A stretch of DNA of 64,000 bases. It comes from Phytohabitans rumicis. GTDB lineage: Bacteria > Actinomycetota > Actinomycetes > Mycobacteriales > Micromonosporaceae. Shown in pieces: positions 27,656-52,482 of the stretch. The notes beneath the pieces were generated by a model. It made no database searches and was not told the DNA's origin. It saw only the letters and a list, made by a program, of their open reading frames with translations. The position numbers and the translations under genes are program-made. The stretch covers positions 9,539,316 through 9,603,315 of the forward strand of contig NZ_BLPG01000001.1 in the NCBI RefSeq assembly GCF_011764445.1, read 5' to 3'. Position 1 is the stretch's first letter; each line of letters begins with the position of its first letter.

Positions 27656-28980
27656 CGAGGTGGGGGCTGTTGACCGGTTGGGGCCGTACGGCGGCGACCG
27701 GGATGACCGTGCTGAGCGGCCGCGACGACGCGGCGCTGTCGGAGGCGGTGCGTAACGCGGGCGCCCGCGGCATCCTGGCGCGCGGGCTGGGCCGGTCGTA
27801 CGGTGACGCCGCCTGCAACGCGGGCGGTGCGGTGGTGGACATGACGGGCCGCGACCGCATCCTCGGCTGGGACTTGGCGGAGGGCACGGTCAGGGTGGAG
27901 GCGGGGGTGAGCCTGCGCCGGCTGGTTGACGCGGCGCTCCAGCGTGGATGGTTTCTCCCGGTCCTGCCCGGCACCGGGTACGTGACCGCCGGCGGCGCGA
28001 TCGCGGCGGACGTACATGGCAAGAACCATCCCGCCGTAGGCTCCCTCGCCCGGCATGTGTCCTCTGTGGACCTTCTGACGGCGGATGCCGTGGTCCGCAC
28101 CGTGGGGCCGGCGGACACCCCCGAGGTCTTCCACGCCACCTGCGGCGGCATGGGTCTGACGGGGCTGATCCTCAGAGCGACGCTGCGGCTGGCGCCGGCG
28201 CCCAGCGCCTGGCTGGTGACCGAGACGGAGCGGGCGCCCGACCTGGACGGGCTGATCGCGCGGCTCGCCGACGGCCGCGGGTATCCGTACGCCGCGGCCT
28301 GGCTGGACCTGCTCGCGCGGGGCGGTACGACCGGGCGCGGTGTCGTCGTTCGGGGACGGCACGCCGCGCGGGGCGAGGCCCCGGTCGGGCCCGCGCCGGC
28401 CCGGCGGCGACCGGGCGTACCGGCGGTGGTTCCGGGCGGCACCCTCAACCGGGTCAGCGTGCGGGCCTTCAACGAGGCGTGGTTCCGGCGCGCGCCGCGC
28501 CGCCGGGCCCGCGCCCTGGCCTCCGTGCCGGCGTTCTTCCACCCGCTCGACGCCGTCCCGCACTGGAACAGGCTGTACGGCCCGCGCGGCTTCGTGCAGT
28601 ACCAGGCCGCGCTCCCGTTCGGTGCGGAGCCCGCGCTGCGCCGCCTCGTCGACCGGGTCGCCGCCTGCGGACACGCCCCGTTTCTGGGTGTGCTCAAGGT
28701 CCTCGGCGCGGAGGCCGGCGGTCCGCTGTCGTTCCCGATGCCGGGCTGGACCCTCGCGTTGGACCTCGCGGCCACGCCTGAGATCGTCACGTTGCTGGAC
28801 CGCCTCGACGAACTCGTCGCCGCGGCGGGCGGCCGGGTCTACCTGGCGAAGGACGCGCGGCTGCGCCCCGACCTGTTGGCGGCGATGTACCCGCGGGTCG
28901 ACGCCTTCCGCGAGACGCGCGAACAAATGGATCCTCGCCGCGTGTTCATGTCGAACCTGGCCCGGAGGCTGTCCCTGTGA
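27652..28980 (+). CDS. dprE1: Decaprenylphosphoryl-ribose 2-oxidase
   Basis: A 442-residue FAD enzyme of the VAO family that oxidises decaprenyl-phospho-ribose at C2. It shows the FAD-binding RGLGRSYGDAACN and AADVHGKNHP, plus the active-site strand GWTLALDL and AKDAR. Aligned without gaps to Mycobacterium tuberculosis DprE1, Lys400 corresponds to Lys418, and Ala369 (codon 28756-28758) takes the place of Cys387, the residue modified by benzothiazinones. It overlaps ubiA (ATGA) and dprE2 (GTGA). Confidence 0.93.
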   Translation: MTRWGLLTGWGRTAATGMTVLSGRDDAALSEAVRNAGARGILARGLGRSYGDAACNAGGAVVDMTGRDRILGWDLAEGTVRVEAGVSLRRLVDAALQRGWFLPVLPGTGYVTAGGAIAADVHGKNHPAVGSLARHVSSVDLLTADAVVRTVGPADTPEVFHATCGGMGLTGLILRATLRLAPAPSAWLVTETERAPDLDGLIARLADGRGYPYAAAWLDLLARGGTTGRGVVVRGRHAARGEAPVGPAPARRRPGVPAVVPGGTLNRVSVRAFNEAWFRRAPRRRARALASVPAFFHPLDAVPHWNRLYGPRGFVQYQAALPFGAEPALRRLVDRVAACGHAPFLGVLKVLGAEAGGPLSFPMPGWTLALDLAATPEIVTLLDRLDELVAAAGGRVYLAKDARLRPDLLAAMYPRVDAFRETREQMDPRRVFMSNLARRLSL

Positions 28981-29731
28981 TTGACGCCCTCGGCATCCCA
29001 CAGTCGCTGCTGCTGCTCGGTGGCGCGTCCGACATAGCGCTCGCGATCGCCCAGCGGTATCTCACACACCGTCCACTGCGGATCGTGCTGGTCGGCCGTC
29101 CGTCGCGGCGCCTCGCCGAGGCGGTCATCGATCTTGAGGCGGCCGGTGCGACGGTGCAGACGGTGGCGTTCGACGCCGCTCAGCCGGCCGACCATCCGGC
29201 GGTCGTCGAACAGATCTTCGCCGGTGGCGACATCGATGTCGCCGTCGTCGCGTTTGGCGTGCTCGGCGAGCACCCGGTGGCCGCGCTCGACCACCGCGAG
29301 GCGGTCGCGCTGGCGCAGGTCAACTACGTCGGCGCGGTGAGCGTCGGGGTGCTTCTCGCCCGGCGGCTGCGCGCGCAGGGGCACGGGCCATCGTCGCGCT
29401 GTCGTCGGTGGCCGGCGAGCGGGCGCGGCGGGTCAACTTTGTGTACGGGTCCTCGAAGGCCGGCCTGGACGCGTTCTACACCGGTCTTGGCTACTGGCTG
29501 GAGGGCAGCGGGGTCCGGGTCGTGGTCGTACGCCCCGGGCAGGTGCGCACGAGGATGACCGCGGGGCTTCGCGAGCAGCCGCTGACCACGACGCCGGAGG
29601 CGGTGGCCGAGGTGGTCGTTCGGGCCGTCTGGGCGGGCCGGCGCCAGGTCTGGGTGCCCGGTCGTTTGCGCCCGGTCATGGTGGTGCTGCGGCACCTGCC
29701 CGGCCCGCTCTTCCGCCGCCTGGGGCGCTGA
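28977..29731 (+). CDS. dprE2: Decaprenylphosphoryl-2-keto-ribose reductase, single-base frameshift
   Basis: A short-chain dehydrogenase that reduces the 2-keto intermediate to decaprenyl-phospho-arabinose with NADH. The N-terminal part has LLLLGGASDIALAIA (nucleotide loop) and NYVGAVSVG. Adding one G to the run 29385-29387 joins it to the second part with the catalytic YGSSK and VVVVRPGQVRTRMT, giving 251 residues. The start GTG overlaps the dprE1 stop. An essential-type gene with an otherwise perfect sequence argues that the shift is a sequencing error. Confidence 0.9.
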
Positions 29732-32740: not shown

Positions 32741-33232
32741 CTAACGACGCTCGGGTGGTGGCTCGGCCGGCGAGCCCTCCGAGCCGACGGTGGCGGTGCC
32801 GGAGAGGTCGAGGTCGCGGCCGGCGACGAAGGTGCCGCGCAACTCGACGTTGCCGCCGACGGAAACGGCACCCGCGTCGGTGATGTGGACCCGGTGGCCG
32901 CCAGCCGGCAGCTGCCGCTCGATCTCGCGCACCAGGCTGGCCAGCTCGCCGGCCAGCTCGGGGTGCTCTTCGACGAGGTCGGCCAGGCGGGTCTGCCACG
33001 CCTGTGCCTGGGCCTGCCGGGCCTGCTCAAGCTCGTCACCGGACAACCCGTCCAGCTGCGTGGCGGACCGGTCGAGCCGCTGCTCCGCGCTGGCTTGCCG
33101 GTCCTGGTCTCCGCGGCCGAACAGGCGGGCGAACCCGGCCCGCGCCGCGGCCCACGCGTCAGTCGCGATGGCGCTCACGAGGACGCCGCCACCGCTGATG
33201 ATCAACGCCTGGCTGACCGGGTCGAGCACCAT
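32741..33232 (-). CDS. Small protein with N-terminal hydrophobic helix and VAGRDL strand motif
   Basis: A 163-residue protein: a hydrophobic segment at residues 8-24 (ALIISGGGVLVSAIA), a helical middle (SAEQRLDRSATQLDGLSGDELEQARQAQ), and a C-terminal beta segment GGNVELRGTFVAGRDLDLSG. That last motif matches GGDVRLVGTYVAGRDLIIHQ at residues 27-46 of the NB-ARC protein at 35439, sharing 12 of 20 positions. I infer a role as membrane-associated partner in the same conflict-type module. No enzymatic motif seen. Confidence 0.6.
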   Translation of the reverse strand: MVLDPVSQALIISGGGVLVSAIATDAWAAARAGFARLFGRGDQDRQASAEQRLDRSATQLDGLSGDELEQARQAQAQAWQTRLADLVEEHPELAGELASLVREIERQLPAGGHRVHITDAGAVSVGGNVELRGTFVAGRDLDLSGTATVGSEGSPAEPPPERR

Positions 33233-33302: not shown

Positions 33303-34223
33303 TCACCGTCCGGACATACGGGCCACGACCGGGGCGAACACCCGGTACGCGTCAGCGGTCACCACCACGTACGAGACGCCGAACTCCGCGCGGTGCCGTT
33401 CCAACGCGTCCACCAATCGCTCGATGTCGCCCACGAGCAGGTGCGGCGAGGCGAGCACCTCCTCGACCGGTAGCCGCATCTCCGCGGCGACCCCGTCCGC
33501 CGCGGCGCGCCAGTCGCGCGCGACGACCGTGCGATAGGCCCGGATGTTCAGCTCGACCCGGTCCAGCCGCTCACCGGCCGCGGCGCGGATCCACCCGACC
33601 TTCCGCCGGGTCGCCGCGGCCGTCAGGTCGGTCGGTACGCCCTCGGTGGCCGTGTGCACCGGGTTGAGGCCGACGATGTCCGCCTCCCGCGCCGCGAGCG
33701 TGAGGACCTGCCGGCCGCCGCCGCCTACCAGGATGGGCGGATGAGGGCGCTGCGCCGGCGCGGGCAGGCCGTCCAAGTCATGGACGGTGTAGTGGCGGCC
33801 GGTGATGCTGACCCGTCCGCCGCTCAGCAACGCTTTGACGATGGCCAGCGCCTCGGCGAGCCGTTCCACCCGTTCGGCGCCGCTCGGGAAGAGCAGGCCG
33901 AGGCGGTCGTAGTCGGTACGCCGCCAGCCCGCCCCGAGCCCCAGCTCGACCCGACCATCGGTGAGGCGGTCGACGGTCGCCGCCTCGCGGGCGAGCACGG
34001 CGGGATGCCGGAGGCCCTCGGCCAGCACGAACGATCCGACCCGCAGGCCGGGCGCGGCGTCCGCGGCGGCCATCATCGCCGGCAGGGGAGCCAACTGGTC
34101 GCCGGCATGGTCGATCACGAGCAGGCTCGCGTACCCGAGGTCGGCGACGTCGCGGCTCAGCGACCGCCAGGCGAGCCGGTCGTAGGAGTCGGACGCTTCC
34201 ACGCCGAAACGAAACGGTCTCAT
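33303..34223 (-). CDS. F420-dependent LLM-class oxidoreductase
   Basis: A 306-residue luciferase-like TIM barrel (FGVEASDSYDRLAWRSLSRDVADLGYASLLVIDH, GRVELGLGAGWRRTDYDRLG, PHPPILVGGGGRQVLTLAAREADIVGLN). This subgroup uses coenzyme F420 for hydride transfer to unknown substrates. It is divergent from the Gfo/Idh gene at 34314. No operon partner is obvious. Confidence 0.88.
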   Translation of the reverse strand: MRPFRFGVEASDSYDRLAWRSLSRDVADLGYASLLVIDHAGDQLAPLPAMMAAADAAPGLRVGSFVLAEGLRHPAVLAREAATVDRLTDGRVELGLGAGWRRTDYDRLGLLFPSGAERVERLAEALAIVKALLSGGRVSITGRHYTVHDLDGLPAPAQRPHPPILVGGGGRQVLTLAAREADIVGLNPVHTATEGVPTDLTAAATRRKVGWIRAAAGERLDRVELNIRAYRTVVARDWRAAADGVAAEMRLPVEEVLASPHLLVGDIERLVDALERHRAEFGVSYVVVTADAYRVFAPVVARMSGR

Positions 34224-34313
34224 CCCGTAAGGCTGTCAGGCCACGGTGGACGGTCATAGAATTCCGGCATCGTCGATGTCGAACCGTTCTGTGGGCGGCC
34301 GCTGGCTACGGCC

Positions 34314-35399
34314 GTGATCGGCTGTGGCGACGTTTCCCGCAAGTACGCGGCCACGTTCGCCCGGCACCCGCTGGTCCACGTCGCCCGGTGCGCGGACCTG
34401 CTGCCCGTACGGGCAGGGGAGCTCGCGGCCCGCACCGGCGCGGCGCCCGGCACCGTCGATGAGATCCTCGACGATCCCGGCATCGAACTGGTCGTCAACC
34501 TCACCCCGCCGCAGATGCACGCGCGCGTGACCGAGCGCGCGCTGCGGGCCGGCAAGTCGGTGTACACCGAGAAGCCGCTCGCGGTCGACGCCCCCACCGG
34601 GGCGCGGTTGCTCGCCGAGGCCACCGCGGCTGGGCTGTGGCTGGGCTGCGCGCCAGACACGTTCCTTGGTCCGAGCGCCCGGGTCGTGCGCGGCCTGATC
34701 GACGACGGCGAGATCGGCACGCCGCTCGGCGCCGCCGCGGCCATGCTGGCCGCCGGGCACGAACGCAGCTGCGCCACCCCCGACGCCTTCTACCAGCCGG
34801 GCGCCGGCCCGATGCTGGACATGGGCGTCTACTACGTGACGATGCTGGTCAGCCTGCTCGGACCGGTGCGCCGGGTGACCGGGATGCGGGCCAGCCCCGC
34901 GCCGCTGCGCACCATCGACGTGGGTGCGCGCGCCGGCGCCACGTTCGAGTCGACGGTGCCGACCCACGTCACCGGCCTTCTCGATTTCGCCAGCGGCGTG
35001 ACCGGCACGATCACCGCGAGCTTCGACGTCTGGGGCAGCCGGACGCCGCCGCTGGAGATCTACGGCACCCGGGGCGCGCTCGTCCTACCGGACCCGAACT
35101 TCTTCCGCGGCCGGGTCCAGCTCCGGCGAGCGGGACAGCGGCGCTGGATCGAGGTGCCGGTGCCGCAGCGTTGGCCGGCGGGGCGGGGCATCGGCGTCGT
35201 CGATCTCGCACACGCGATGCGCGGCCGTGGCCCGCAGCGGGCGGGCGGAGCGCTGGGCCGGCACGTGCTCGAGGTGATGACCGGCATCGTCGACGCCGAC
35301 GGCACCGGCCGCGATATCGGCTCGACCTGCGCACGCCCGGCCCCATTTCACCCGATGGTGTCAGACGACGGCTGCGCGTGGTGCGAGACGTTAGGCTAA
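34314..35399 (+). CDS. Gfo/Idh/MocA-family NAD(P) oxidoreductase
   Basis: A 361-residue sugar-dehydrogenase-type protein. It has the Rossmann loop IGCGDVSRKY, EKPLAVDAPTGARLL with the catalytic lysine of the EKP motif, and DMGVYYVTMLVSLLG with a C-terminal DP-x-FF barrel. GTG 34314 cuts off the first residue of the first beta strand. The frame is open back to 34260 without another good start, so the true start is uncertain. The substrate may be a sugar or inositol derivative. Confidence 0.88.
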   Translation: MIGCGDVSRKYAATFARHPLVHVARCADLLPVRAGELAARTGAAPGTVDEILDDPGIELVVNLTPPQMHARVTERALRAGKSVYTEKPLAVDAPTGARLLAEATAAGLWLGCAPDTFLGPSARVVRGLIDDGEIGTPLGAAAAMLAAGHERSCATPDAFYQPGAGPMLDMGVYYVTMLVSLLGPVRRVTGMRASPAPLRTIDVGARAGATFESTVPTHVTGLLDFASGVTGTITASFDVWGSRTPPLEIYGTRGALVLPDPNFFRGRVQLRRAGQRRWIEVPVPQRWPAGRGIGVVDLAHAMRGRGPQRAGGALGRHVLEVMTGIVDADGTGRDIGSTCARPAPFHPMVSDDGCAWCETLG

Positions 35400-35438
35400 T
35401 GGCACCGAAACGCTGCTCGCCGCCATCGACTGGACGCC

Positions 35439-37856
35439 ATGACCGAGACGCCTGAGGGGACCGGCGAGCCCGTGCCGCCGTCTCCGTCCACCGTGTCCGG
35501 CAGCGGCCTCGTGGCTGGCGGCGACGTGCGGCTGGTCGGCACGTACGTGGCCGGCCGGGACCTGATCATCCACCAGCACCCGCAGCAGCCGGTCGCCGCG
35601 CCGAGCGGCATCCACATGCTGCCCGCCCACGTGATCGACTTCGCCGGTCGCGACGACGACATCCGGCAGGCACTGTCCTGGTTCGAGGCCGGCAGCGGCA
35701 GCCGGCAGGCGGTCCCGGTGCTCGCTATCGCCGGCAAGGCTGGTGTCGGCAAGACCACGCTCGCCGTCCACCTTGGACATGAGCTGGCCGACCGCTACCC
35801 GGATGGCCAGCTCTACGTCAACCTGCGCGGGGTGGAGGCCGAGCGGCTTGACCCGGCCGAAGTGCTCAGCGGGTTCCTGCGCGCCTTCGGCGTCGCGGGC
35901 GCGGCGATCCCGCAAGAGCTGGAAGAGCGGGCCAGCCTGTACCGGCAGTTCCTGTACGACCGGCGGATGCTGGTCCTGCTCGACAACGCCGCCAGCGAGG
36001 CCCAGGTGCGGCCGCTGCTGCCGGGCAGCCCCGGCTGCGCGGTGATCGTGACCAGTCGGCCATTGCTGACCGCATTGCCCGGCGCCCGCCTGCTCACCCT
36101 CGATGTGATGCCGCCGGCGCAGTCGATCGACCTGCTCGCGAAGATCCTGGGAGAGTCCCGGGTGGCCGGCGGCGAGTCCGCCGCGGCTGAGATCGCCGAG
36201 CTCTGTGGCCACCTGCCACTGGCGCTGCGGATCGCCGCCGCGCGGTTGGCCGCCCGTCCCCGCTGGCCCTTGACCCATCTGGCCACACGGCTACGCGACG
36301 AGGGCACGCGGATCGCCGAGTTGAGAGCAGGTGATCTTGAAGTGCGTGCCGCCTTCGCGCTCAGCTATGAGGGCCTCGCCGAAGCCGACCGCCAGGCGTT
36401 TCGCCGGCTCGGCCTGATCCGCGCCTCCGACTTCGCCGCCTGGGTGGCCGCCGCGGTCCTCGACACCGACGTCCCAACCGCGGAGGAGGCGCTGGAACGA
36501 CTGGTCGATGCCCAACTGCTCGAATCGGACGGCTTCGACGCCACCGGCCAGCCCCGATACCGGTTCCACGACCTGCTGCGCTCGTTCGCCCGGGAGCGGA
36601 TGCGCGCCGAGGAGGAGCCGGCCGAGCTGGGTGCGGCGAGCGGCCGGTTTCTCGGCGCGTACCTCGCGTTGTCCAAGCGCGGCCTGTACCTGCTGGCCCC
36701 CAACAGCAAGCGCGATCCGCTCGCCAGCCGGGCGACCCAATGGCCGCCACCCGGGCTCGACATCGACGAGCTGATGCGCCCCACCCCGTTCAGCTGGTTC
36801 CTGGTAGAAACGCAGGGGATCGTGGCGGCGGTGACCCAGGCGTACGAGGCCGGCCTGTGGGACATGACCTGGGAACTGGCCGATCCGCTGCATTTCCACT
36901 GCCGCGTGTTCGCCCTGTGGAAGCCTTGGACGACGACTCACGAACTCGCCGTCGAGGCCGCCCGGCGGGCCGACAACCCCCGCGGCGAGGCGTTCATCCT
37001 GCGCAACCTCGGCAACGCCTACCGCGATGCGGGCCTGCCGGCGAAGGCGGTCGCCTGCTACGAGGCCAGCCTCGACCTCGGGCGCCGGCTCGACAGCCGG
37101 CTGATCCAGGCGGCGGCGCTCAACGGAGCCGGCGAGGTCACCCTCGACCGAGGCCGGTTGGTGACCGCCCGCTCATACCTCGAGCAGGCGCAGGCCGCCT
37201 GGACCGATGCCGAGGACTGGACCGGCGTGGCCTACGGGCACACCCACCTCGCCGTCGTCTACGCCGACCAGCGACTCCTCGACCAGGCCGAAGAGCACGC
37301 CGCCGAGTCGCTGCGGATGCAGACACAGTTCCGCGACCGCAGCGGCGAAGCGTACGCGCGGATGACCCTCGGCCGGATCGCCCGGCTGCGCGATCGGCCC
37401 GCGGACGCCGTCGCGGCGTACGAGCGGTGCCTGGAGATCTACGCCGAGATCGGCGAGCGGCTCGGCGCGGCCGACGCGCGGGTCAGCATGGCGCAGGCAC
37501 ATCGCGACCAAGGCCGCCACGAGGAGGCCGCGCGGCGGCTGGACGAGGCGATTACCACCTACCTCGACTTCGGCGGCGGCAGGCGCCGGGCCATCGCGTT
37601 CACGGTCCTGGCCGCCCTCGACCGTGACGAGGGGCGACTGCAGGCGGCGGCGGAACGGCTCGCGGAGGCGATCGCGGTACTCCGCGGCGCCGACGACATC
37701 CTCAACGAGGCACGCGCCCAACTGGAGTTGGCCCGGGTGCGGCACGCCGCAGGCGACGCCGGAGCGCAGGAGGCAGTCGCGGCGGCCATCAGCGGGTTCG
37801 AGCAGGCCGGCTCGCCCGAGGTGGACGAGGCCCGAGCCCTGGCCGAGCGGGTTTGA
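35439..37856 (+). CDS. NB-ARC STAND ATPase with TPR sensor domain
   Basis: An 805-residue signal-transduction ATPase. Residues 1-50 carry the VAGGDVRLVGTYVAGRDL strand motif. NB-ARC follows with Walker A GKAGVGKTTLAVHLGHEL, Walker B MLVLLDNAASE, the sensor VIVTSRP, GxP motif GHLPLAL and a winged helix with HDLLRSFARERM. Residues 500-800 are TPR repeats (RNLGNAYRDAGLPAKAVACYEASLDL). STAND proteins oligomerise on ligand sensing. It is convergent (17 bases) with the Trypco2-protease-NTPase operon and shares its motif with the protein at 32741. Likely part of the same conflict module (inference). Confidence 0.85.
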   Translation: MTETPEGTGEPVPPSPSTVSGSGLVAGGDVRLVGTYVAGRDLIIHQHPQQPVAAPSGIHMLPAHVIDFAGRDDDIRQALSWFEAGSGSRQAVPVLAIAGKAGVGKTTLAVHLGHELADRYPDGQLYVNLRGVEAERLDPAEVLSGFLRAFGVAGAAIPQELEERASLYRQFLYDRRMLVLLDNAASEAQVRPLLPGSPGCAVIVTSRPLLTALPGARLLTLDVMPPAQSIDLLAKILGESRVAGGESAAAEIAELCGHLPLALRIAAARLAARPRWPLTHLATRLRDEGTRIAELRAGDLEVRAAFALSYEGLAEADRQAFRRLGLIRASDFAAWVAAAVLDTDVPTAEEALERLVDAQLLESDGFDATGQPRYRFHDLLRSFARERMRAEEEPAELGAASGRFLGAYLALSKRGLYLLAPNSKRDPLASRATQWPPPGLDIDELMRPTPFSWFLVETQGIVAAVTQAYEAGLWDMTWELADPLHFHCRVFALWKPWTTTHELAVEAARRADNPRGEAFILRNLGNAYRDAGLPAKAVACYEASLDLGRRLDSRLIQAAALNGAGEVTLDRGRLVTARSYLEQAQAAWTDAEDWTGVAYGHTHLAVVYADQRLLDQAEEHAAESLRMQTQFRDRSGEAYARMTLGRIARLRDRPADAVAAYERCLEIYAEIGERLGAADARVSMAQAHRDQGRHEEAARRLDEAITTYLDFGGGRRRAIAFTVLAALDRDEGRLQAAAERLAEAIAVLRGADDILNEARAQLELARVRHAAGDAGAQEAVAAAISGFEQAGSPEVDEARALAERV

Positions 37857-37873
37857 CAGCGTCCTTCCAGGGT

Positions 37874-40800
37874 TTAGCTGAGGTGGAGTACCTCGTCGGC
37901 CACGGCGACGAGCACGGCGGGAGCGACCGCGGCCAGGGCATGCATCGGTGTCGCGTCGTAGAACAGCATGCTCCGCGTCGGGTAGTCGTGGAACAGCGCG
38001 GTGGCCAGCAGGCGGTGCGCGTTCTCGGGTCCGGCGGCTATGGCCAGATCGAGCAGTGCGCGCAGCCGGAGGTCCGGCTCGCCGACGAGTTGGACCTGCG
38101 CCTCGGCCAGCCCGAAGAGGCTGCGGGCCCGGCCGGAGTCGCCGGCGGCGGCCGTGATCTTGAAGATCTTGACCAGCAACCGGAGACGGTCCAGGGGGTC
38201 GGCGGACGAGACGGCGAGTGCCACGGCGCGGTCGGTGTCGCGCGTCGCGGTGACCGCCGCGAACGCCTGGCGGATCACAAACTGCCGTTCCCTCGGGTCC
38301 GCCGTGGTGTCGATCAGGGCCACGACCTTGGTCGCGAGGGCCTTCGCGGCGTCGCCATGGGCCAGGCGTACCAGTTCGACAAGCGTGGTGGCACGCCAGT
38401 ACGGGTTGTCGATCAGGTCGGCGGCCGCCTCCGCGCCGTCGGCGAGGGTTCTCGCCCGGTCGGCGTCTCCCGCGGCGGCCGCCGACTCGGCCAGCGTGGC
38501 AAGCGTCCGGGCCCGCTGGCGGGGGTCGGAGATGGTGGCGGCGAGTGCCTGCGCCTGGTCGACGTCGGGAGCTGCCTCGGCGATCCGGGTCAGCGCGCGG
38601 TCGCGCGCGTCGGGGTCGCGGATGGTCCGGACCAACGCCTCCGCCCGTGGCACGTGGTCGAGGTCGGCGAAGGTCTCCGCGACAGCGGTCAGCGCGCTCG
38701 CCCAGTGGTTTCCGAGCGAGCGGGTCAGGGCCTCCGCGCGGTCGAGGTCGCCCGCCTCGGCGACGGCGATGGCGACTCTCGCAATCGCCCCCGCACGGGT
38801 TTCGCTGCCGGACAAAGTACCGGCCAGCTCCTCGGCCCGGTCGAGGTCGCCGGCCCGGATCGCGGCGTCCACCAAGCTTGCGTGATCGCTCTGGGACGCC
38901 TTGCCGCTCGGGTTGGTCGACCGGGACGCGGCCTGGGCTCGGGCCAAGGCTTCGGCGACGTCGGCGACCGCCTTGGCCCGCGTCTCCGGGTCGCGGATAA
39001 CGGCGGCCAGTGCCGACGCCCGGTCGAACTCGCCCAGCCCCGCCAGCGGTCGGATCAGGTCGACGACGACCTGTGGGGCGGAAGTGGCGTCGGATCGAGC
39101 GACTCGCTCCGAGTCCGCTGCCAGCGCGGCAGCGCGCGGTTGACCGGCCTTGGCCGCGTACTCGGCGATTTCTGCCAGGGCTTGTGACCGGCGGCGCGGG
39201 TCGCTGGCCGCACGCGCCACCTCCTCGGCCCGGTCGATGTCGCCGATCCTGGCCGTGGTCGCCGCGAGCCTGGCTAGCGCGTTCGACGCGGTGTCCACGC
39301 TCCACCGCGAGGACTCGACGGAGCGCGCGGCCCGGTACGCCCGCTCGGTCAGCCGTGCCACCCGTTCGGTGTCACCCGCCGCGGCCGCCGGCGGGATCAG
39401 GTCGGTCAGGGTCCAGGCCCGTCCGTACGGCACAGGGATCGAGTTGGCGACGCGCTCGGCGGCATCGAGATCACCGAGGTCGACAAGGACCGTGACCAGC
39501 TCGTTCAGCACCCGCGACCCGGGTATCTCGCCGGTCTTCGGATCCCACAGCATCCGGCGCAGGCCGGCCGCCCGTCCGATTTGGCCCGCGCGGGCGTACA
39601 CCCGGACCAGGTCGTAGAGGACGGCCTCCTGAAGCTTGGGATGGATGGACTGCTCGGCTCCGGCCGCGGCCGCGTCGGCCAGCGTGACCGCCCGCTCGGT
39701 CTCGCCAAGTGCCGCGAGCGCCAGGGCGAGGCCCGCCTGGGCCACCGCCCGCCAGTCCCGGTCGGTGATCCCGCCGGCTATCGCCTCGGCGCGTTCGACG
39801 TCGCCGAGGCCGGCGATGGTCCGGGCCAGCGTGGCGTACACGCCTTCGCGGTCGTCCTGGTTTTCGATGGTCGCGGCCACCGCCTCGATACGCGCCACCA
39901 GCGCGGCCACCTCGTCGGCGTCGCCGGCACCCGCGGCCCGCTTCACCAGGTCGATCAGGGCGTCGACGCGTTCGCCGGCGTCGCTGATCGAGGACGCGGC
40001 GGACTCGGCGAGACGGGCGAGCCGCGTGGCGTGTCCGGCGTCGCCGGTCGCCGCCCGCATCCTGGTGAGGGTTGCGAACCGCACCGCCCGGCTGCCTTCG
40101 TCCGAGATCGAGACGGTGAGCCGCACGGCCTGATCGAGGTCGCCGCGCCGGGCCCAGGCGCCGGCAAGGTACGCGAGCGCGGCGTCGCGGTCGGAATCCG
40201 TGATCGACACGGCGGCCGCCTCGGCCAGGTCGGCCAGGGACGCCGCCCTGGCCTGGTCGCCGGCGCGTGCCGCAAGCGTCATGAGGTCGGCCAGGGCCCG
40301 TGACCGCCGGCCCGGTTCGGTGATCGACCGGGCGAGCGCCTCGGCCCGGTTGGGTTGCCCGAGCCTGGCCCACACACTTGCGAGCGCCTCCGGGATGCCG
40401 GTGTTGCGGCCGGCGAGGTGGTCGCGGTGGACCATCAGCCTGGCCATCGCCAGTAGATCGCTGCCACCGCCGGCGAGTACGGCCTCCTGGGCGCTGGTGA
40501 CTTCGGCGAACGCCGCGCTGTCGCCGCCGGTCAGGTCCAGCATCCGGTCGTGCCGGTCGGCGTCGGTGCCGCAGCTGACCATCCGCGGCAGATCTGCGGT
40601 GGACCGCAGCAAGGAGTGGTAGCCGCCCAGCAGGTACTCCGGTGTCGTGGCCGGCCAGCCGGCGTCGCGGTACCGGTCGGCCCAGGCGTGGATGGTCTGC
40701 CGGTGCGCGGCGAGCTCGGCCTCGCCGAGCCGCCGCACCGCCGTCTGCTGGAGCTCCTCATGACCGAACAGGTAGACCTCCGGCGCCGTACCGGCCTGCC

Positions 40801-41668
40801 ATAGGCTCAGCCGCCGGGTGAAGACGCGTCCGGCCCGTCCTTGCAGGTACGACTCCACGTCACGCCTCCGCCGGCCGGTCAGGTCGGCCAGGTCGGCGCA
40901 GCTGAGACCGCCCCCGGCGGCGGTGATCAGGCCGAGCAGCTCGGACCCGACCCGGTCGCCGTGCAAGACCTCGTCGAGCTCCCGCTCCGCCCCGGCGCGG
41001 ATGTCGACCACCGCGGGGGACTGGTCGAGGCTCCGTACGACGGCGGATGCTCGGAGGGCGGCCTCGACGGAAGGATTCGGGCGGCTGCCGACGACGACGC
41101 GCATCCCGGCCGGCACCCGGTCGGGCAGCAGGTTGGCGATGCTGTGCGCGGTGCCGACGCCGGCGTCTTCGTCCAACCCGTCCACGACGAGGACGAGCCG
41201 CTTCCCGAGGCGCCGGCACGCCTCGGCCGCGTCGGTGAGCATGCCGAGCAGGTGGGCGTCCTTTGTGGACTGCGTGAGGAACACCGGCATCGGCTGTCCG
41301 AGCAGCTCGGCCAGCTGCTCGAGGACGACGTCAACGAAGGCGTCGCGGTCGTCCTGATGCGCGAGCCGGCCGGTGACGAAGAACGCCACTACCCGCACGT
41401 GCGCCGGCGGGTGCAGCACGAACCAGGACAGCAGGGCCGACTTGCCGGTCCACGCCGGAGCCCGCCACCACAGGTACGGATCGCCGTCCGACCCGATGCA
41501 GAACCGGGACAGCTCGGCGAGCTCCGCCTCCCGATCGACGAGGGTCTCCGGCGCTATCCGCCGCACCTGGTGGACGTACGCCGACCGGACCACCGGACCG
41601 GGCGAGAGGCTGATATCGGGAAGCGTGCGCTCGTGGCGGGGGACCACCACGGCCGGCGCGCCGGTCAC
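37874..41668 (-). CDS. Large STAND-type NTPase with long alpha-solenoid
   Basis: A 1264-residue protein from GTG 41668, overlapping the protease stop (GTGA). After a REAELAELSRF leader the NTPase has Walker A APAWTGKSALLSWFV (first G replaced by A), Walker B RLVLVVDGLDED, the sensor RVVVGSRPN and a winged-helix region to about residue 350. Residues 500-1230 are roughly twenty helical-pair repeats of 33-36 residues with consensus AGDLDRAEALARSI-DP-RARALA-LAE. This is the NTPase core typical of actinobacterial trypsin-associated conflict systems. Confidence 0.85.
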   Translation of the reverse strand: MTGAPAVVVPRHERTLPDISLSPGPVVRSAYVHQVRRIAPETLVDREAELAELSRFCIGSDGDPYLWWRAPAWTGKSALLSWFVLHPPAHVRVVAFFVTGRLAHQDDRDAFVDVVLEQLAELLGQPMPVFLTQSTKDAHLLGMLTDAAEACRRLGKRLVLVVDGLDEDAGVGTAHSIANLLPDRVPAGMRVVVGSRPNPSVEAALRASAVVRSLDQSPAVVDIRAGAERELDEVLHGDRVGSELLGLITAAGGGLSCADLADLTGRRRRDVESYLQGRAGRVFTRRLSLWQAGTAPEVYLFGHEELQQTAVRRLGEAELAAHRQTIHAWADRYRDAGWPATTPEYLLGGYHSLLRSTADLPRMVSCGTDADRHDRMLDLTGGDSAAFAEVTSAQEAVLAGGGSDLLAMARLMVHRDHLAGRNTGIPEALASVWARLGQPNRAEALARSITEPGRRSRALADLMTLAARAGDQARAASLADLAEAAAVSITDSDRDAALAYLAGAWARRGDLDQAVRLTVSISDEGSRAVRFATLTRMRAATGDAGHATRLARLAESAASSISDAGERVDALIDLVKRAAGAGDADEVAALVARIEAVAATIENQDDREGVYATLARTIAGLGDVERAEAIAGGITDRDWRAVAQAGLALALAALGETERAVTLADAAAAGAEQSIHPKLQEAVLYDLVRVYARAGQIGRAAGLRRMLWDPKTGEIPGSRVLNELVTVLVDLGDLDAAERVANSIPVPYGRAWTLTDLIPPAAAAGDTERVARLTERAYRAARSVESSRWSVDTASNALARLAATTARIGDIDRAEEVARAASDPRRRSQALAEIAEYAAKAGQPRAAALAADSERVARSDATSAPQVVVDLIRPLAGLGEFDRASALAAVIRDPETRAKAVADVAEALARAQAASRSTNPSGKASQSDHASLVDAAIRAGDLDRAEELAGTLSGSETRAGAIARVAIAVAEAGDLDRAEALTRSLGNHWASALTAVAETFADLDHVPRAEALVRTIRDPDARDRALTRIAEAAPDVDQAQALAATISDPRQRARTLATLAESAAAAGDADRARTLADGAEAAADLIDNPYWRATTLVELVRLAHGDAAKALATKVVALIDTTADPRERQFVIRQAFAAVTATRDTDRAVALAVSSADPLDRLRLLVKIFKITAAAGDSGRARSLFGLAEAQVQLVGEPDLRLRALLDLAIAAGPENAHRLLATALFHDYPTRSMLFYDATPMHALAAVAPAVLVAVADEVLHLS

Positions 41669-42364
41669 CGCCGCCCACCCCGGGAGATAGCGGTGGACGC
41701 GGCGAGCGCGGCTTCGAGCGGTACCACCATGAGGCGGCGTTGCTGGCGGTCGGCGTCGGCGCCGACCACCACGCCGACCAGCTGCCCCTCCGGCAGCAGC
41801 ACCCCGGCGCCGGACATCCCGCCCCAGCCGCTCCGCGCCACCGGTGTGGCGGTCGAGACGTCCAACGGCATCCACTGCCGGGGCAAGGGATGTCCCTGAG
41901 CTGCCGGTGGCTTGGCCTGCCCCATGGGCAGCAGCGTCCCCCAGACCTGCTCGGACTGCCGGACCGTCGCATGTGGGCCGGGCCGCCGGACTGGCGGGCC
42001 TCGTCCGGGAAGCCGACCGTCTCGCAGCCGTGCTCTACCGTGCTTCCCACGGCCACCACCCGGGCTCGGCCGAGGGCGGCGCCGCCCAGCCGGGCGCGTC
42101 GTCCGCGTCCGGCTCGACTTCAAGAATGGCCAGGTCCCAGGCGGAATCGGCGGCCAAGACCCGGGCGTTCACCCATCGGGGCGCCGGTTCACCGCGCCGG
42201 ATCAAGCGAACCAGGACGCCCCCGGGACGCGGCTCCCGCGACGCTTGGGCCACCACGTGGTGCGCGGTCAGGACCCCGCGCGCGCCGATCGCCACGCCGG
42301 AGCCTGCCCGGCCGGGCCAGGCCCAGACCTCCGCGAGCCGGCTGTCCCACAAGCGCTGAGCCAC
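41665..42364 (-). CDS. Trypsin-like serine protease, two single-base frameshifts
   Basis: The first frame has GSGVAIGARGVLTAHHVV with the catalytic histidine and AWDLAILEV with the aspartate. After a missing C near 42059-42061 the second frame reads VVAVGSTVEHGCETVGFPDE. After another near 41968-41970 the third frame gives SEQVWGTLLPMGQ and WGGMSGAGVLLPEGQLVGVVV with the catalytic serine, ending at 41665. Correcting both yields 233 residues and the GTGA overlap with the NTPase gene. Cytosolic, no signal peptide. It is probably the effector switched by the NTPase. Confidence 0.82.
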
Positions 42365-42385
42365 GGCCGGCTACCCGTCAGCCGG

Positions 42386-42703
42386 CTACCGGCCCGGTGC
42401 GGGCTGGTCGCCTGAGATGTCCAAGGGACCCGGCGAACCGTCGTCGCCGTCGTGCAGCTGCGGCGTCATCGTCAAGACCAGGGTCTGTGTCCGCTCGTTG
42501 CCGGAACGCACGCCAGCGCCGGCCTCGACCACGTACCAACGGACCTTGCCGGAGCCGTCCCTGTCCAGCCTGGCCACGGTCTCCACGGTCAGCGTCACCT
42601 CGCTGGCGCGGAACCGCACGCTGCGCCCCTCACCCGATCGCCACGCGGACTCCAACTCGTCGCGCAAGGCTTCCAACGCCGCCGCGAGCCCTAGTTCCTC
42701 CAC
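42386..42703 (-). CDS. Trypsin-co-occurring domain 2 (Trypco2)-like protein
   Basis: A 105-residue protein starting GLAAALEALRDELESAWRSG, then VRFRASEVTLTVETV, then VRWYVVEAG and TQTLVLTMTP. These blocks match the Trypco2 family, named for its association with trypsin-like proteases and NTPases in bacterial conflict operons (established from comparative genomics). It ends 21 bases before the protease start. It may act as adaptor between sensor and protease. The family call is from memory of the pattern. Confidence 0.78.
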   Translation of the reverse strand: MEELGLAAALEALRDELESAWRSGEGRSVRFRASEVTLTVETVARLDRDGSGKVRWYVVEAGAGVRSGNERTQTLVLTMTPQLHDGDDGSPGPLDISGDQPAPGR

Positions 42704-42980
42704 AGGAGGAGTCTACTGTGGAGGACCGCTCGGCAAGACCCGTCGCGAGGTCGTGAAGCCGACACTCAGGCGCTATCGTGAGCTGCGGCAGGCACGTCCC
42801 CACGTAATGGCGACAAGAGGCGCCGCTGGGCAGCCGCACCCCGACGGAAGGGAATGGCGGCGTGGCAGTGCGGTTGCTGGACCGCCTGCTACAGCGTCGC
42901 GTGCAGGTACTTCGCGACGGACTCCGGGCCGACCGAGGCGCAGCGGCACCAGTCGACCAGTGTCAGGTCGTAGGCCCGCA

Positions 42981-44456
42981 TCAGGCCGGCGAGACCGGCC
43001 GCCGCGTTGCCGACGGCGCCCGACTCGCTGGCGTAGCGGCAACAATGTCGTGGCTGCACGGGTTGGCAAGTGTCCGGTGTGGGCTGTCGTCGGTGGTGCC
43101 GTCGGCCGCCGTGCCCCGCACCCACCAGACGATCCGTACGTGGCGCAGGCCGGTGCGGCTGCCGCTGGCGGTGCTGCGCGTGGTCGCGGTCATGGCGGCG
43201 CTCTGGGGGGCGGACTCGGTGGCGGGCCGCCAGTAGAGACGACTCGAGGTCATGGTGCGGTTGGCGGTGGCGTCGGCGAAGAGCGTGTACGTCGCCCCGT
43301 CCGAGCCGCACCGTACGTCCCCGCTCGCCGTGACGGCGAACGCGGGCCGGCGTTCGCTTGTGGATGGTGTCGGGCTGTCGGGCTCTGGTGTGGACAGTGG
43401 ACCGGTCGGGTCCGGTATGGATGATGGGCCGGATGACGAGGCGGCCGGTGAGGGCGGTGCGGCCGAGGGCGCGGTCGACGGCGGGGGCGCCACGGGTGCG
43501 ACCGGTAGTGTCGGTGGACCCGCGGACGCCGATGTGGACGGTGCCGGCGGCGCGGATCCGCTCGCCAGGTCGGGCGGTGGCGTGGTCTTCCCGGGCCGGG
43601 TCAGCACGATCACGACCAGCATCGCCATGGCCGCCGCGGCTCCGGCCGCCGCCAGCGTGCTTCGCCGCCGCCGCGCCGCAAACCCGTCGCGGTCGAGCCG
43701 GACATCCGGCGGCCCGGCCGGGCGCCACGAGGCGGCGGGCAGCACCGCGAACGGCGCCGCTACGTACCCGGTCAGCAGCGCCGCCGGGCTGAGCAGCGCG
43801 GCACGGCTCGCCACGCAGCGGGCGCATCCATCGACGTGGCGGCCGAGCCGCTTGCGCAGCCGCGGGGTGAGCCGGCCGTCCCACCCGGGGACCAGCTCCC
43901 GCAGCCCCGGGCAGGCCGCCGCCCGCGCGACGAGCAGCACGCCGAGCGCGCGCTCCAGCTGGGAACGGGCCCGGGACAGGCGGGCGTGCGCGTGGTTGGC
44001 GGAGACGCCGAGCACCGCGCCGATGTCCGCCGCTGACAGTCCATGCCGAAGCGCCAGCTCGATCACCTCGCGGTCGCCGTCGCCGAGCCCGGCCGCCGCT
44101 GCGTGCACGAGCTCGCGCACCTCCGCCGCCCGCACACCCGCGCCGAGATCGGCGGTGTCCGCGGTGGTGTCGTCGAGCTCGGCGGGCGACTCGCGCCGCC
44201 GGTCGCGGATCTGGCGCAGGCACTCGCGCCGGGCGATCGCGTACAGCCACGGCAGGAGCCGCTCCGGCTCGCGCAGCTGCCCGGCCCGCCGGCCCGCGAT
44301 GACGAACGTGTCCTGCACCGCGTCGGCGGCCGCGTCCGCGTCGCGCAGGGTCGCCCGGCAGTACGCGTACAGCCGGGGCGCATAGCGGCGGTAGGCGCCG
44401 TCGAGACCCCGCGGGTCGCCGGCGACCATCGCCGCCACAAGCCCACGGTCGTCCAT
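42981..44456 (-). CDS. ECF sigma factor with fused zinc-finger, TM and extracytoplasmic tail
   Basis: A 491-residue protein. Residues 1-165 are sigma2 (YRRYAPRLYAYCRATLRDADAAADAVQDTFV) and sigma4 (LRHGLSAADIGAVLGVSANHAHARLSRAR). A zf-HC2-like HVDGCARC follows near 215, then a TM helix (LAAAGAAAAMAMLVVIVL), a P/S/T-rich linker and a C-terminal domain with two cysteines. Such membrane-tethered ECFs carry their own anti-sigma module. Near the 3' end another frame (AYDLTLVDWCRCASVGPES, to 42889) also looks coding, so the true C-terminus may be shifted by an indel. Confidence 0.82.
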   Translation of the reverse strand: MDDRGLVAAMVAGDPRGLDGAYRRYAPRLYAYCRATLRDADAAADAVQDTFVIAGRRAGQLREPERLLPWLYAIARRECLRQIRDRRRESPAELDDTTADTADLGAGVRAAEVRELVHAAAAGLGDGDREVIELALRHGLSAADIGAVLGVSANHAHARLSRARSQLERALGVLLVARAAACPGLRELVPGWDGRLTPRLRKRLGRHVDGCARCVASRAALLSPAALLTGYVAAPFAVLPAASWRPAGPPDVRLDRDGFAARRRRSTLAAAGAAAAMAMLVVIVLTRPGKTTPPPDLASGSAPPAPSTSASAGPPTLPVAPVAPPPSTAPSAAPPSPAASSSGPSSIPDPTGPLSTPEPDSPTPSTSERRPAFAVTASGDVRCGSDGATYTLFADATANRTMTSSRLYWRPATESAPQSAAMTATTRSTASGSRTGLRHVRIVWWVRGTAADGTTDDSPHRTLANPCSHDIVAATPASRAPSATRRPVSPA

Positions 44457-44655
44457 CTCCGGCACGGTAGCTCCCCTCGCACCCGAGCCGTGGCCCCGAA
44501 GATCACGCCCCGGGGCCACCCTGCCTATGGAATGCCAGAGGGTACAGAAGCGGCTGTCGCGATCCCGACAGGTGGAAGTTGTTGGTGGTAGCGGCCGGCA
44601 TATCTCTCACCGGTGTCCGGCACCACACCCGGGCACCGACAGATCGGAGAAAGTC

Positions 44656-45063
44656 ATGCCTGTCATCCACGCTCCTTGGGCCCTGCGCGGGGCGGCCCGA
44701 GCCGCGGCAGCCGCCGCGTTCGCGATAGCCCTGCTCGCTGGCATCCCGCCTACGGCGACGGCTGCACGCCCGACGGCGGCGGCCAGCACGACGGCGACCG
44801 CGGCCAGCCCAACCGAAGTCCAGGCGACCAAGGCGAGACTGCTGGCCGCCATCGAGCCGTGCGCGACCCGAGTGCCACGCAACGACGTCGTCGCGTTGGG
44901 CCAGTGCACGCGGGACCTCGCCGTACCCAACGCCGAACCCAGCCAGGGCATCATCGACTTGATCTACACCTTCCTGTACTGCCTGTGGTTGCAGTGGGAC
45001 GACGGCACCTGGGACGGCCCGTACCCGACCGTCGGAGCCTGTATGGAGGTGCACGGGTACTAG
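44656..45063 (+). CDS. Small secreted protein
   Basis: A 135-residue protein with a signal peptide (ALRGAARAAAAAAFAIALLAGIPPTATA). The mature part has four cysteines (EPCATRV, GQCTRDL, LYCLWLQWDDG, GACMEVHGY) that could form two disulfides. GGAGAAAG precedes ATG 44656. It is divergent from the sigma factor gene and could be a target of it. No family recognised. Confidence 0.65.
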   Translation: MPVIHAPWALRGAARAAAAAAFAIALLAGIPPTATAARPTAAASTTATAASPTEVQATKARLLAAIEPCATRVPRNDVVALGQCTRDLAVPNAEPSQGIIDLIYTFLYCLWLQWDDGTWDGPYPTVGACMEVHGY

Positions 45064-45599
45064 GCACAGGTCGCTGGCGGACTCGCTCGACGAACGTTTC
45101 GGCATCCTCCATACGGCCAGCCAGTCGAGCGTCCTTCCCGATCTCCTTTGCAGGTCGAGCGCCGCCAACCGAACGGCTGGCACATGTGGGCCGCGTCGGC
45201 CGCTGCCTGGCCACGGATACCAGGCGGCGGCCGGCAGCGGACCCGGCCCACACGTCAGGCTCACGCTCAACCCAGACCCGGCACCTACACCCTGCCCACC
45301 AACTACTACGACCGCACCAGCCGAATCCCTCGCCGGCACGTCCAGCCTTCCCAACCGGGTCGTAGCCCGCGGAGCCTCCCGTCAAGCTCATACAGGAAGA
45401 TCGGACGGTGTGCGTGGTCCGGACACCTGCTGCGCCACACATGCGCCCAGCACGAGGAATCGGTGCGCACGTCGACAGCTCACGCAGGCCGGCGGGTTGC
45501 TGCACTTCACGACTTCACCGGTGCGTACGTGCACGTGGCGGGCGCGTAGTCACGCCTGTCGGGCCTGGTTGGTTAGTGCGCGACGAGGTCGAGCCGGGG
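45064..45599. other. Intergenic stretch without supportable gene
   Basis: Open frames exist on both strands, but none has a ribosome site, consistent codon bias or recognisable sequence. The region may hold decayed DNA between the secreted protein and the convergent hydrolase. Confidence 0.4.
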
Positions 45600-46460
45600 C
45601 TAGGTAGCGGGCGGTGCCGCGCGGCGGGCGAGGAATGCCTCCACAGTCGCCGCGAAGGTGGCTGGGTCGTCCACCCAAGGGAAGTGCCCGGCTCTGGGCA
45701 GCACCGCCAGGTCGGCGTTGTGGAGAAGGGCGGCCAGGTCGCGTACGGCCGCGGACGTTGGCCAGATGTCGTACTCACCGACCACCAACAGCACCGGCAC
45801 CGTGAGCGCCGCGAGCCGTTTCGGCAGCGTCGGGTCCGGTTCGAAGCCGGTGTAGAACCCGTCCGTGGCCGGCTGGGCGAATTGGGCGGGCTCGGCGGCG
45901 GCCTGCGCCTGGGCCGCGGCGTCCCACCGCCCATACAGCAGCGGCGCCGACAGCCAGCGGTACCGCTCCAGGTCCTGCGGCGATGTGGCCTCGGCGCGCA
46001 GGGCGGCGACCGCGTCGGCGTACCACGGCTCATGCTCCCGTCGGGCCAGCACCTCGTCCACGCCAAGGTCGGACTGGATACCAACCACGCGCAGGGACGG
46101 ATCGATCAGCACAAGACGGTCGAGCCGGTGCGGATGCTCGGCCGCGTACAACAGGCAGATCCCACCGCTCGCCGAGTGTCCAAACAGGTCAATCCGATCC
46201 AGCCCAAGGTGGCCGCGCAGCGCCTCGACGTCCTCGACGAGCCGGTCGACCTGGTACGTCGTGGGATCCCGCGGGGCCCGCGACGCGCCCGTGCCGCGGT
46301 TGTCCAGCAGGATCAACGTCCGGTGATCGCTGAGACCGCCCAACTCACCGAGGTACTCGACGGCCTGACCCGGACCACCCGGGACGCACACCAGGGGCGG
46401 ACCTGAGCCGACCACCCGATATGCCAGGTCCGTGCCGTCCCAGGAGCGAAAACGCAGCAT
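45600..46460 (-). CDS. Alpha/beta hydrolase (proline-iminopeptidase-like)
   Basis: A 286-residue alpha/beta hydrolase. The oxyanion region is VCVPGGPGQAVEYLG, the nucleophile elbow GHSASGG, the acid VVGEYDIWP and the histidine AGHFPWVDDP. The HGGPG-like start and DNRGTGAS fit the prolyl-iminopeptidase/esterase subgroup. ATG 46460 gives the family N-terminus (RFRSWDGTDLAYRVVG). The substrate is unknown. Confidence 0.88.
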   Translation of the reverse strand: MLRFRSWDGTDLAYRVVGSGPPLVCVPGGPGQAVEYLGELGGLSDHRTLILLDNRGTGASRAPRDPTTYQVDRLVEDVEALRGHLGLDRIDLFGHSASGGICLLYAAEHPHRLDRLVLIDPSLRVVGIQSDLGVDEVLARREHEPWYADAVAALRAEATSPQDLERYRWLSAPLLYGRWDAAAQAQAAAEPAQFAQPATDGFYTGFEPDPTLPKRLAALTVPVLLVVGEYDIWPTSAAVRDLAALLHNADLAVLPRAGHFPWVDDPATFAATVEAFLARRAAPPAT

Positions 46461-46870
46461 GCGACCCAAGTCTGCCACGAACCCTGGCGAGGTAAGACCA
46501 CGTTGGCTACGGTCACCGCGCCGACAGCTCCGCGCACGATCAGTGCCAGCAGATGCCGCCAGCCGGCCGCCTCGGTGTCCTGACGGTCCGCGTGGAACAC
46601 GACGCTTGTCGGCCGGGTCGCGACGGAATGGCCGACGCGGCGGCAACGGTCGCGGGCCGGACCGCCCGCACTGGGTCCGACCGCTTCCGCGAAGACCCTG
46701 AAGGTGGGTTATGAGGGACAGAGCCTTGCAGGCTGTGGTCCTCAACGCCCTGGAACTCAGGTGGGAAAGCGCGGTTCGAGTGTCGAGCCGAGAAGCTACG
46801 GCTTCCTTGAGCGACGACAATGCCATCATGCTCATACATACCGGCCGCACCCCGCACCCAAGAGGTTCAG
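46461..46870. other. Intergenic stretch, promoters only
   Basis: This 410-base divergent gap separates the hydrolase from the small gene at 46871. I see no supportable reading frame or RNA structure. It should contain both promoters. Confidence 0.4.
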
Positions 46871-47143
46871 ATGCTCTACCAGAGCCCTGCTGACTATTGC
46901 GCCGAGTACGCCAAAGCGCATAACCGCAACAAAACTGATGAATTCGGCGCCGTGTCCACACTGGAAAAGGTGACTGTCGTCAGCGAGACCCCGGACACGG
47001 CGCGGGTCGAGGCGCTCTGGTTCACATGTGGCCACGACCCGGATTCCGGGTACTACGACGTTTTTGAGCGCACCGCCTTCGTCCTGGTCAAGCGGTACAA
47101 CGGGTGGCGCCTGCACTCCGAAGAAGATCTCGGCTACGAGTGA
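46871..47143 (+). CDS. Small hypothetical protein
   Basis: A 90-residue soluble protein from ATG 46871, preceded by AAGAGG. It reads as an alpha+beta domain (SPADYCAEYAKAHNR, VEALWFTCGHDPDSGYYDVF, TAFVLVKRYNGWRLHSEEDL), similar in outline to small NTF2/SnoaL-like folds. It is AT-richer than its surroundings in the first half, which may indicate transfer. No function assigned. Confidence 0.55.
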   Translation: MLYQSPADYCAEYAKAHNRNKTDEFGAVSTLEKVTVVSETPDTARVEALWFTCGHDPDSGYYDVFERTAFVLVKRYNGWRLHSEEDLGYE

Positions 47144-51577: not shown

Positions 51578-52482
51578 GTGACGACCCTGACGAAGCTTCA
51601 GCCTGCCCCTGTCATCGACGAGATAGCCAGGCTGCTGACCGAGCACTACGTTTTCCCTGAGATAGCCGAGCAGCTCGCCGGTCTGCTACAACGACGCCTC
51701 GCCGAGGGCGCCTATGACGTCGACGGTGCCGAGGAGCTCGCCCGTCTGGTCACCGCGGACCTGCAGTCCGCCAACGACGACAGACACCTGAGACTGAAGC
51801 ACCACGCCGACCCGGTGCCCTCCCAGCAGGGGCAGCCACCCTGGCCTCCATGCGCCGGGACTTCGACACCTCGCTGGGCGGTGCGCCCCGGGTGGAGTTG
51901 CTCGGCGGAGGGGTCGCCGTGGTGGAGCTGGCGCCGATGCTGTTTCCGCTCGAGTGGGCCGCCGAACCGCTGAGCGCCGCGCTCACCCTGGCCTCCCGCG
52001 CCCAGGCGCTGATCGTGGACCTTCGCGCCAACCGGGGTGGCGACCCGGACACGGTCGCCTTCATCTGCAGTTACCTATTGGACGAGCGCACTCACCTCAA
52101 CACCATGTACTGGCGCGACGGCGAGCGCAGCGAGCAGTCCTGGAGCCTGCCGCACGTTCCCGGCGCGCGCTTCGGTGGCAGCAAACCGTTGTATGTATTG
52201 TCCAGTGACAACACCTTCTCTGCCGCTGAGGAGCTGGCGTACGACCTGCAGCAACTCGGCCGCGCCGTGGTCGTCGGCGAGCGCACCCGCGGCGGCGCCC
52301 ATCCGTGCAAGGGCTGGACCGTGCACCCACACCTGGAAACCACCGTCCCCACTGGCCGCGCCATCAACCCCGTCTCCGGCGCGAACTGGGAGGGCACCGG
52401 TGTGCAGCCGGACGTCCCTTGCACTGCTGCTGAGTCCCTCGACCAGGCGCACGCACTGGCCCTCGGTCGACTGGCAGGCTAA
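51578..52482 (+). CDS. S41-family peptidase, single-base frameshift
   Basis: An N-terminal helical domain (VIDEIARLLTEHYVFPEIAEQLAGLL) is followed, after one missing G in the run 51829-51832, by the S41 fold in the next frame: LIVDLRANRGGDPDTVAFICSYL, SSDNTFSAAEELAYDL with the catalytic serine, and GERTRGGAHP. Corrected length is 301 residues. There is no PDZ domain or signal peptide, as in the small interphotoreceptor-retinol-binding-like S41 group. The physiological substrate is unknown. Confidence 0.87.

Follow-up and report, generated by a model that had tools for sequence, protein, structure and literature searches.

We report that a stretch of 64,000 nucleotides from the actinobacterium Phytohabitans rumicis (contig NZ_BLPG01000001.1, positions 9,539,316 to 9,603,315; hereafter the window) probably encodes an NLR-like intracellular sensor with a protease effector, in the form of a Trypco2 / trypsin-STAND-solenoid module whose trypsin and NTPase were most likely a single fusion protein at first. 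Three minus-strand parts follow one another in the order Trypco2, trypsin-like region (41665-42364) and STAND NTPase (Table 1), and all of them are real. An earlier, sequence-only reading of this DNA had described three coupled genes, separated by a 21-base gap and then joined by a GTGA overlap. Both junctions are present, the gap lying between the Trypco2 stop and a frame that matches Trypsin_2 and the overlap at 41665-41668, but the three genes are probably two viewed through frame breaks: the original locus most likely consisted of Trypco2 and a trypsin-NTPase fusion. The window lies close to one end of its contig, which measures 9.6 Mb; the genome comprises 10.7 Mb in 3 contigs and is 96% complete.

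Results

A trypsin-like region spread over three frames

The predicted His, Asp and Ser motifs of the trypsin, and a Trypsin_2 match, are indeed there, the roles of the three residues being assigned by eye against relatives; what does not hold is a single open gene, as the His/Asp part, the middle and the Ser part lie in three different frames. The first piece scores 43.7 bits against PF13365 (Trypsin-like peptidase; cut-off 27.6), covering profile positions 1-67 of 144. In the frame plot the coding signal quits the His/Asp frame near 42065, a GFPDE stretch follows in a second frame (about 42065-41965), and the Ser frame then runs to a stop at 41665, inside the GTGA overlap. Its product matches trypsin domains found in relatives, with a best E of 9e-9 among the 41 compared. 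GC content at third codon positions shifts through the same three frames at about the same places, and then into the NTPase frame near 41668. These breaks fit a hint in the sequence-only reading, which had spoken of 'frame-corrected sequences'.

On either side of this region the genes are open. Trypco2, as that reading had recognized, is a 105-residue protein; it matches PF19631 at E=2e-20 (73.3 bits against a Pfam gathering cut-off of 24.2) and has the neighbouring trypsin expected for this family, in the Trypsin_2-matching first piece. Upstream of the trypsin region lies Trypco2, followed by a sigma factor gene. No enzymatic domain was matched in Trypco2 by Pfam profiles, and solved structures gave nothing convincing (best E 0.24); a single-sequence structure model, with a mean predicted local distance difference test (pLDDT) score of 56.5, was excluded from fold searching.

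The NTPase is one open frame of 1264 residues with a GTG start at 41668, in agreement with the earlier description, and carries Walker A-like (APAWTGKS) and Walker B-like (DGLDED, in the context VVDGLDED) motifs. It matches NPHP3_N in Pfam (1.9e-5; 25.3 bits, cut-off 24.8) and PADLOC STAND_TPR (1.6e-97, best stretch residues 34-606), reaches 17.1 of the 26.7 bits set for NACHT (PF05729), and matches no solved structure convincingly (one at E=0.29). Self-similarity of the solenoid peaks at offsets of 33 and 40 residues, the best offset standing about 4 standard deviations above the mean of offsets 10-119, which is consistent with the proposed count of about twenty helical repeats; 115 of 145 relatives match the solenoid at E<=1e-3. 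Two features that had been singled out as unusual, solenoid length and the Walker A variant, were rejected as such, being typical of the family. Measured from where the core match begins through to the stop, length has a median of 1133 and a 90th percentile of 1386, against 1264 here, across 138 loci whose frame ends within the locus (window included). The pattern A-x-x-W-x-G-K-[ST], with A in place of the first G, recurs in 12 of 12 aligned rows, and W, G and K are invariant across 26. When the C-terminal 808 residues were used to search for orthologues in the genus, with 6 genomes including the own one, the best match outside the own genome was 42%, spanning query residues 487-636.

A probable two-gene locus

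Relatives were collected with the NTPase core, which is present in 63 of 200 genomes of the host's family, the host itself included. A genome_contigs scan gave 272 stretches; the 80 highest-scoring ones, which make up 79 loci, were retained, and all 79 bear actinobacterial names, from many genera. After 12 duplicates were dropped, 146 distinct loci were parsed, including the window; L109, which had been fetched as well, lacks this core.

Trypsin is carried by 24 of the 145 relatives, each time fused N-terminally to the NTPase, and because the two form one polypeptide in all 24, two genes are more probable here than three. The distance between the Trypco2 stop and the beginning of the core match is 717 bases in the window, as compared with 611-924 in 20 of 21 relatives and 2045 in L070, and by eye the N-terminus of the window NTPase (LPDISLSPGPVVRSAY) is similar to the trypsin-NTPase linker of fused relatives (e.g. 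LPDVVPAPGATLTRAGY). A real three-gene operon, in which a trypsin of its own stands between Trypco2 and a separate NTPase, the GTGA overlap is natural and frame errors are confined to the trypsin, would account for that overlap, for the GTG start and for the switch of coding frame near 41668. We regard it as unlikely, given the fusion in every trypsin-bearing relative, the linker-like N-terminus of the NTPase, and the fact that outside the window only one separate trypsin was matched upstream, a fragment of 74 residues in L070, where a fusion is also present. In that locus (read again as L241) the short fragment sits between Trypco2 and the fusion, and the distance to the core exceeds that in other relatives by about 1.1-1.4 kb.

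The origin of the frame breaks

That the trypsin occupies three frames is most likely an assembly error, which by our estimate is clearly more probable than decay, because similar breaks seem to affect further conserved genes in the window as well as the two NTPase paralogues of this genome. The LysR (20196-21097), SDR (28977-29728) and S41 peptidase (51578-52479) genes each occupy two frames, and in all three Pfam profiles are matched both before and after the break. Two further genes appear split by eye: an NB-ARC gene (56242-57620), whose second piece has no Pfam match, and a small membrane protein gene (about 18447-18926), judged from its translation. By our reading of the frames, the shift in all five runs the same way as in the trypsin. 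The five were among the direct frame changes flagged by a coding-frame path computed over the window; the path picks up ordinary gene overlaps too, as well as a false case within the open sigma-factor frame (near 43602), and its flags alone are not evidence. The two paralogues, L033 and L034, both continue in another frame past their stop, so that breaks are apparent in 2 of the 2 paralogues of this genome against 2 of 142 other relatives (L038 and L191; Fisher 6e-4); L135 and L186 were also flagged, but resemble tandem copies.

A genuine pseudogene, its protease arm decayed in this strain while the NTPase was kept, for example if an active protease were costly, is the less favoured explanation and in our judgment improbable. 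It would suit an NTPase that is wholly open and two frame breaks within about 100 bases. It sits poorly with a codon-position bias kept in every trypsin piece, with the retention of all three catalytic motifs, with the splitting of unrelated conserved genes in the window, and with the broken-looking NTPase paralogues. Programmed ribosomal frameshifting linking the three trypsin frames and the NTPase can practically be dismissed: all frame changes do run in one direction by our reading, but so do those of unrelated window genes, and the corresponding product lies in one frame in relatives.

Trypco2 co-occurs with trypsin

Trypco2 was found directly upstream of 21 of the 24 trypsin-bearing relatives and of none of the 121 without trypsin (Fisher 2e-22, uncorrected for kinship). 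The sequence-only reading had pointed to a co-occurrence of Trypco domains, trypsins and STAND NTPases in conflict systems, which is the right general idea; the association of Trypco2 with trypsin is thereby upheld, the difference being that the partners in these loci are fused and not separate genes.

A survey for Trypco2 itself found it in 30 of 101 genomes, in 28 of them over the cut-off. Among 21 of its loci that were read (20 chosen from 42 matches, plus L109, also one of the 42), trypsin lies downstream in 19, and in 15 of these 19 it belongs to a frame of at least 860 residues, several of which show a P-loop by eye. Two loci, L229 and L241, have an NTPase of the window's family. Because Trypco2 loci beyond that family also show a downstream trypsin, Trypco2 accompanies trypsin irrespective of the NTPase. 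The host genome offers an example in L109: a second Trypco2 (L109:6224-6541) is followed six bases later by a protein of 1021 residues in which Trypsin_2 and TPR score over the cut-off and STAND below it. L109:6224-9613 therefore holds a Trypco2 / trypsin-STAND-TPR pair that is free of breaks and whose STAND is of another type.

One NTPase family, many effectors

Actinobacteria hold a large family of these NTPases, in which different effectors take turns at the N-terminus, namely trypsin, caspase, nuclease, DUF4062 and short motifs. Ten N-terminal parts were tested, L063 serving as a trypsin control; each starts at the previous in-frame stop and may include non-coding residues. Matches over the cut-off were obtained to caspase (L041, L074), DUF4062 (L071) and Mrr endonuclease (L137), and L060 gave DUF7779 with a borderline NB-ARC. 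A helix-turn-helix match in L075 fell below the cut-off, as did the only match in L056, and L057 and L080 gave none. In many other members, by eye, the N-terminus is a short segment only.

In a tree of 139 cores (7 of 146 rows being left out for stops or short length), the window falls within a clade of 104 rows that holds no other trypsin (Shimodaira-Hasegawa-like approximate likelihood ratio test, SH-aLRT, 99). A more careful 63-row tree, from which five long trypsin rows were left out and into which 46 of 117 others were taken, gives the corresponding branch a support of 100/99 and nests the window deeper at 96/89. The other trypsin rows do not form one clade, and trypsin has therefore been exchanged on more than one occasion or repeatedly lost. 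Many sisters of the window NTPase have, by eye, a short N-terminal segment instead of trypsin, which seems to resemble amyloid signalling motifs.

Since none of the other sampled cores in the window's clade comes with a trypsin, an effector swap is suggested: a Trypco2-trypsin module, cut at the linker before the core, may have been grafted naturally onto a STAND lineage whose sampled members are otherwise without trypsin. We put this forward tentatively, as somewhat short of an even chance. It is also possible that the trypsin was retained from a trypsin-bearing ancestor; constraining the window core to group with the trypsin-bearing rows lowers the likelihood by 39 and 25 log units, but is not rejected at 0.05 (approximately unbiased test, p 0.063 and 0.069). 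The pieces of the window trypsin score similarly against trypsins of the fused family and those of other STAND proteins, and do not place its source.

Table 1. Positions of the elements of the locus, in window coordinates
Element	Position	Strand	Basis
Trypco2 protein, 105 aa, GTG start	42386-42703	-	PF19631 2e-20
Trypsin-like domain, N-terminal part with His and Asp motifs	42038-42364	-	Trypsin_2 6.2e-11; frame plot
Trypsin-like domain, middle part, second frame, limits approximate	41965-42065	-	Translation; frame plot
Trypsin-like domain, C-terminal part with Ser motif GMSGAG, third frame, 5' limit approximate	41665-41965	-	Translation; trypsins of relatives
STAND NTPase with C-terminal helical-repeat (TPR-like) solenoid, 1264 aa	37874-41668	-	NPHP3_N, PADLOC STAND_TPR
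Walker A-like motif APAWTGKS	41438-41461	-	A-x-x-W-x-G-K-[ST] in 12/12 aligned rows
Walker B-like motif DGLDED	41165-41182	-	D-G-x-D-E-D invariant in 26-row alignment
Solenoid, helical repeats of about 33-40 residues	37877-40378	-	Self-similarity; matches of relatives

Short motifs in neighbouring genes

A search for partner proteins that share the short motif of sister NTPases showed no clear overall excess at own loci: with at least 26 bits required, 3 of 120 own loci gave a match, compared with 1.2% of other-locus pairs. The sole own-locus match at E<=1e-3 is a wrong-frame segment of the window, which we take for a composition artefact. Small neighbouring frames with a motif like the N-terminus of the NTPase were seen all the same, with the motif at the C-terminus in L042, L144 and L188, a placement shared with amyloid-motif NLR/effector pairs, and internally in L176, L135 and L155.

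Elsewhere in the window, a small protein at 32744-33232 (minus strand) and an NB-ARC-TPR STAND protein at 35439-37856 (plus strand) share a 16-residue motif (GGNVELRGTFVAGRDL and GGDVRLVGTYVAGRDL, 12 of 16 residues identical), possibly a homotypic recruitment motif.

Discussion

By analogy with NLR-type STAND systems and with Avs1b we infer how such a module might work. The solenoid would bind a ligand derived from an invader or from stress, NTP binding would lead the STAND core to oligomerize, and the gathering of N-terminal trypsin domains would activate them, so that proteolysis could bring about cell arrest or death, presumably in defence. Trypco2 would be a dedicated partner of the protease; our best guess is a substrate or inhibitor, because the protein is small, occupies the position of an upstream partner and has no enzymatic Pfam match.

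The same parts could instead act as a switch in the development or stress response of a filamentous actinomycete, for instance through programmed proteolysis in differentiation, and have no antiviral role. The neighbour at 35439-37856 matches a model of the regulator AfsR below the cut-off (445.9 of 1430 bits), the family spans many actinobacterial genera among the best-scoring loci, and the proteins scanned showed no defence island around the locus; but the patchy distribution of the core in the host's family and the varied effectors found in one position are both typical of conflict systems, and we think a developmental role rather unlikely.

Several observations weigh against a sensor with a protease effector as described here. 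Taken as it stands, the sequence does not encode the trypsin in one open frame, and the protease could be dead in this strain; the two breaks, about 100 bases apart, also cluster more tightly than the others in the window. The trypsin pieces are 29-41% identical to other trypsins (listed alignments of at least 60 residues). Trypco2 was not found upstream of three of the 24 trypsin-fused relatives (L067, L095 and L096), and two of the 21 Trypco2 loci (L228 and L244) have no trypsin by our model. All 24 trypsin-bearing relatives come from the survey of the same family, with 0 of 67 from the best-80 genome_contigs scan. No defence island was seen among 15 window proteins or pieces scanned with PADLOC, whose matches outside the locus are of the TPR type, plus weak ones to the STAND protein at 35439, and we found no experiments on this NTPase family.

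The closest comparisons are with known NTPase-based systems. Trypco2 was named for its co-occurrence with trypsin, in VMAP systems (Kaur et al. 2020, PMC7159879, as far as the accessible text goes). There, as in the window, PF19631 stands beside a trypsin coupled to an NTPase-based system; those are, however, ternary systems of VMAP, MoxR and vWA, whereas the window trypsin goes with a NACHT-like STAND protein and a solenoid. MoxR ATPase, vWA and VMAP are absent among the six neighbouring proteins tested (33303-46961), and membership of a VMAP ternary system was rejected.

In AVAST type 1, the trypsin-STAND protein Avs1b responds to infection by cleaving a partner nuclease, which is thereby activated (PMC12799240, available portion). 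Its N-terminal trypsin, STAND core, repeat sensor and upstream gene tied to the protease recall the window, and the first trypsin piece matches the PADLOC Avs1b profile at 2e-4. Where that system has the metallo-beta-lactamase (MBL) nuclease Avs1a, however, none was found beside the window locus, which has Trypco2 in its place. We rejected Avs1 membership: the first trypsin piece scores 13.3 of 1500 bits on the NCBIfam Avs1b model, the NTPase has no Avs1b match among the matches listed, and upstream are Trypco2 and then a sigma factor. PADLOC STAND_TPR (PDLC01173), which the NTPase matches so strongly, is described with an Xre-HTH, unlike the trypsin-bearing N-terminus here.

The short N-terminal segments of sister NTPases look, by eye, similar to those of amyloid-motif bacterial NLRs (BASS 1-10; PMC8086366 and PMC12261475, in the parts available), and the window NTPase differs from such NLRs in having a trypsin and, by eye, no such motif. 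Trypco2 is further mentioned in diversity-generating retroelement (DGR) loci (2024, PMC10907252, partial text), and many combinations of trypsin and STAND have been described in a paper whose main text, in the portion accessible, does not contain the word Trypco (PMC8195603). We did not meet this exact STAND family with Trypco2 in the literature searched, which comprised partial texts and no supplements, and make no claim of its absence from print.

As a practical consequence, where this assembly suggests three genes, frame errors may have produced the appearance. The locus itself is most likely an actinobacterial version of a widespread two-gene module, which may cause arrest or death of the cell once an invader is sensed. 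Trypco2 is tied to trypsin and not to the NTPase fused to it, across more than one STAND type, which makes it a clear candidate for a substrate or inhibitor of the protease. If the effector swap is true, one receptor scaffold would have gone from recruited effectors to a built-in protease.

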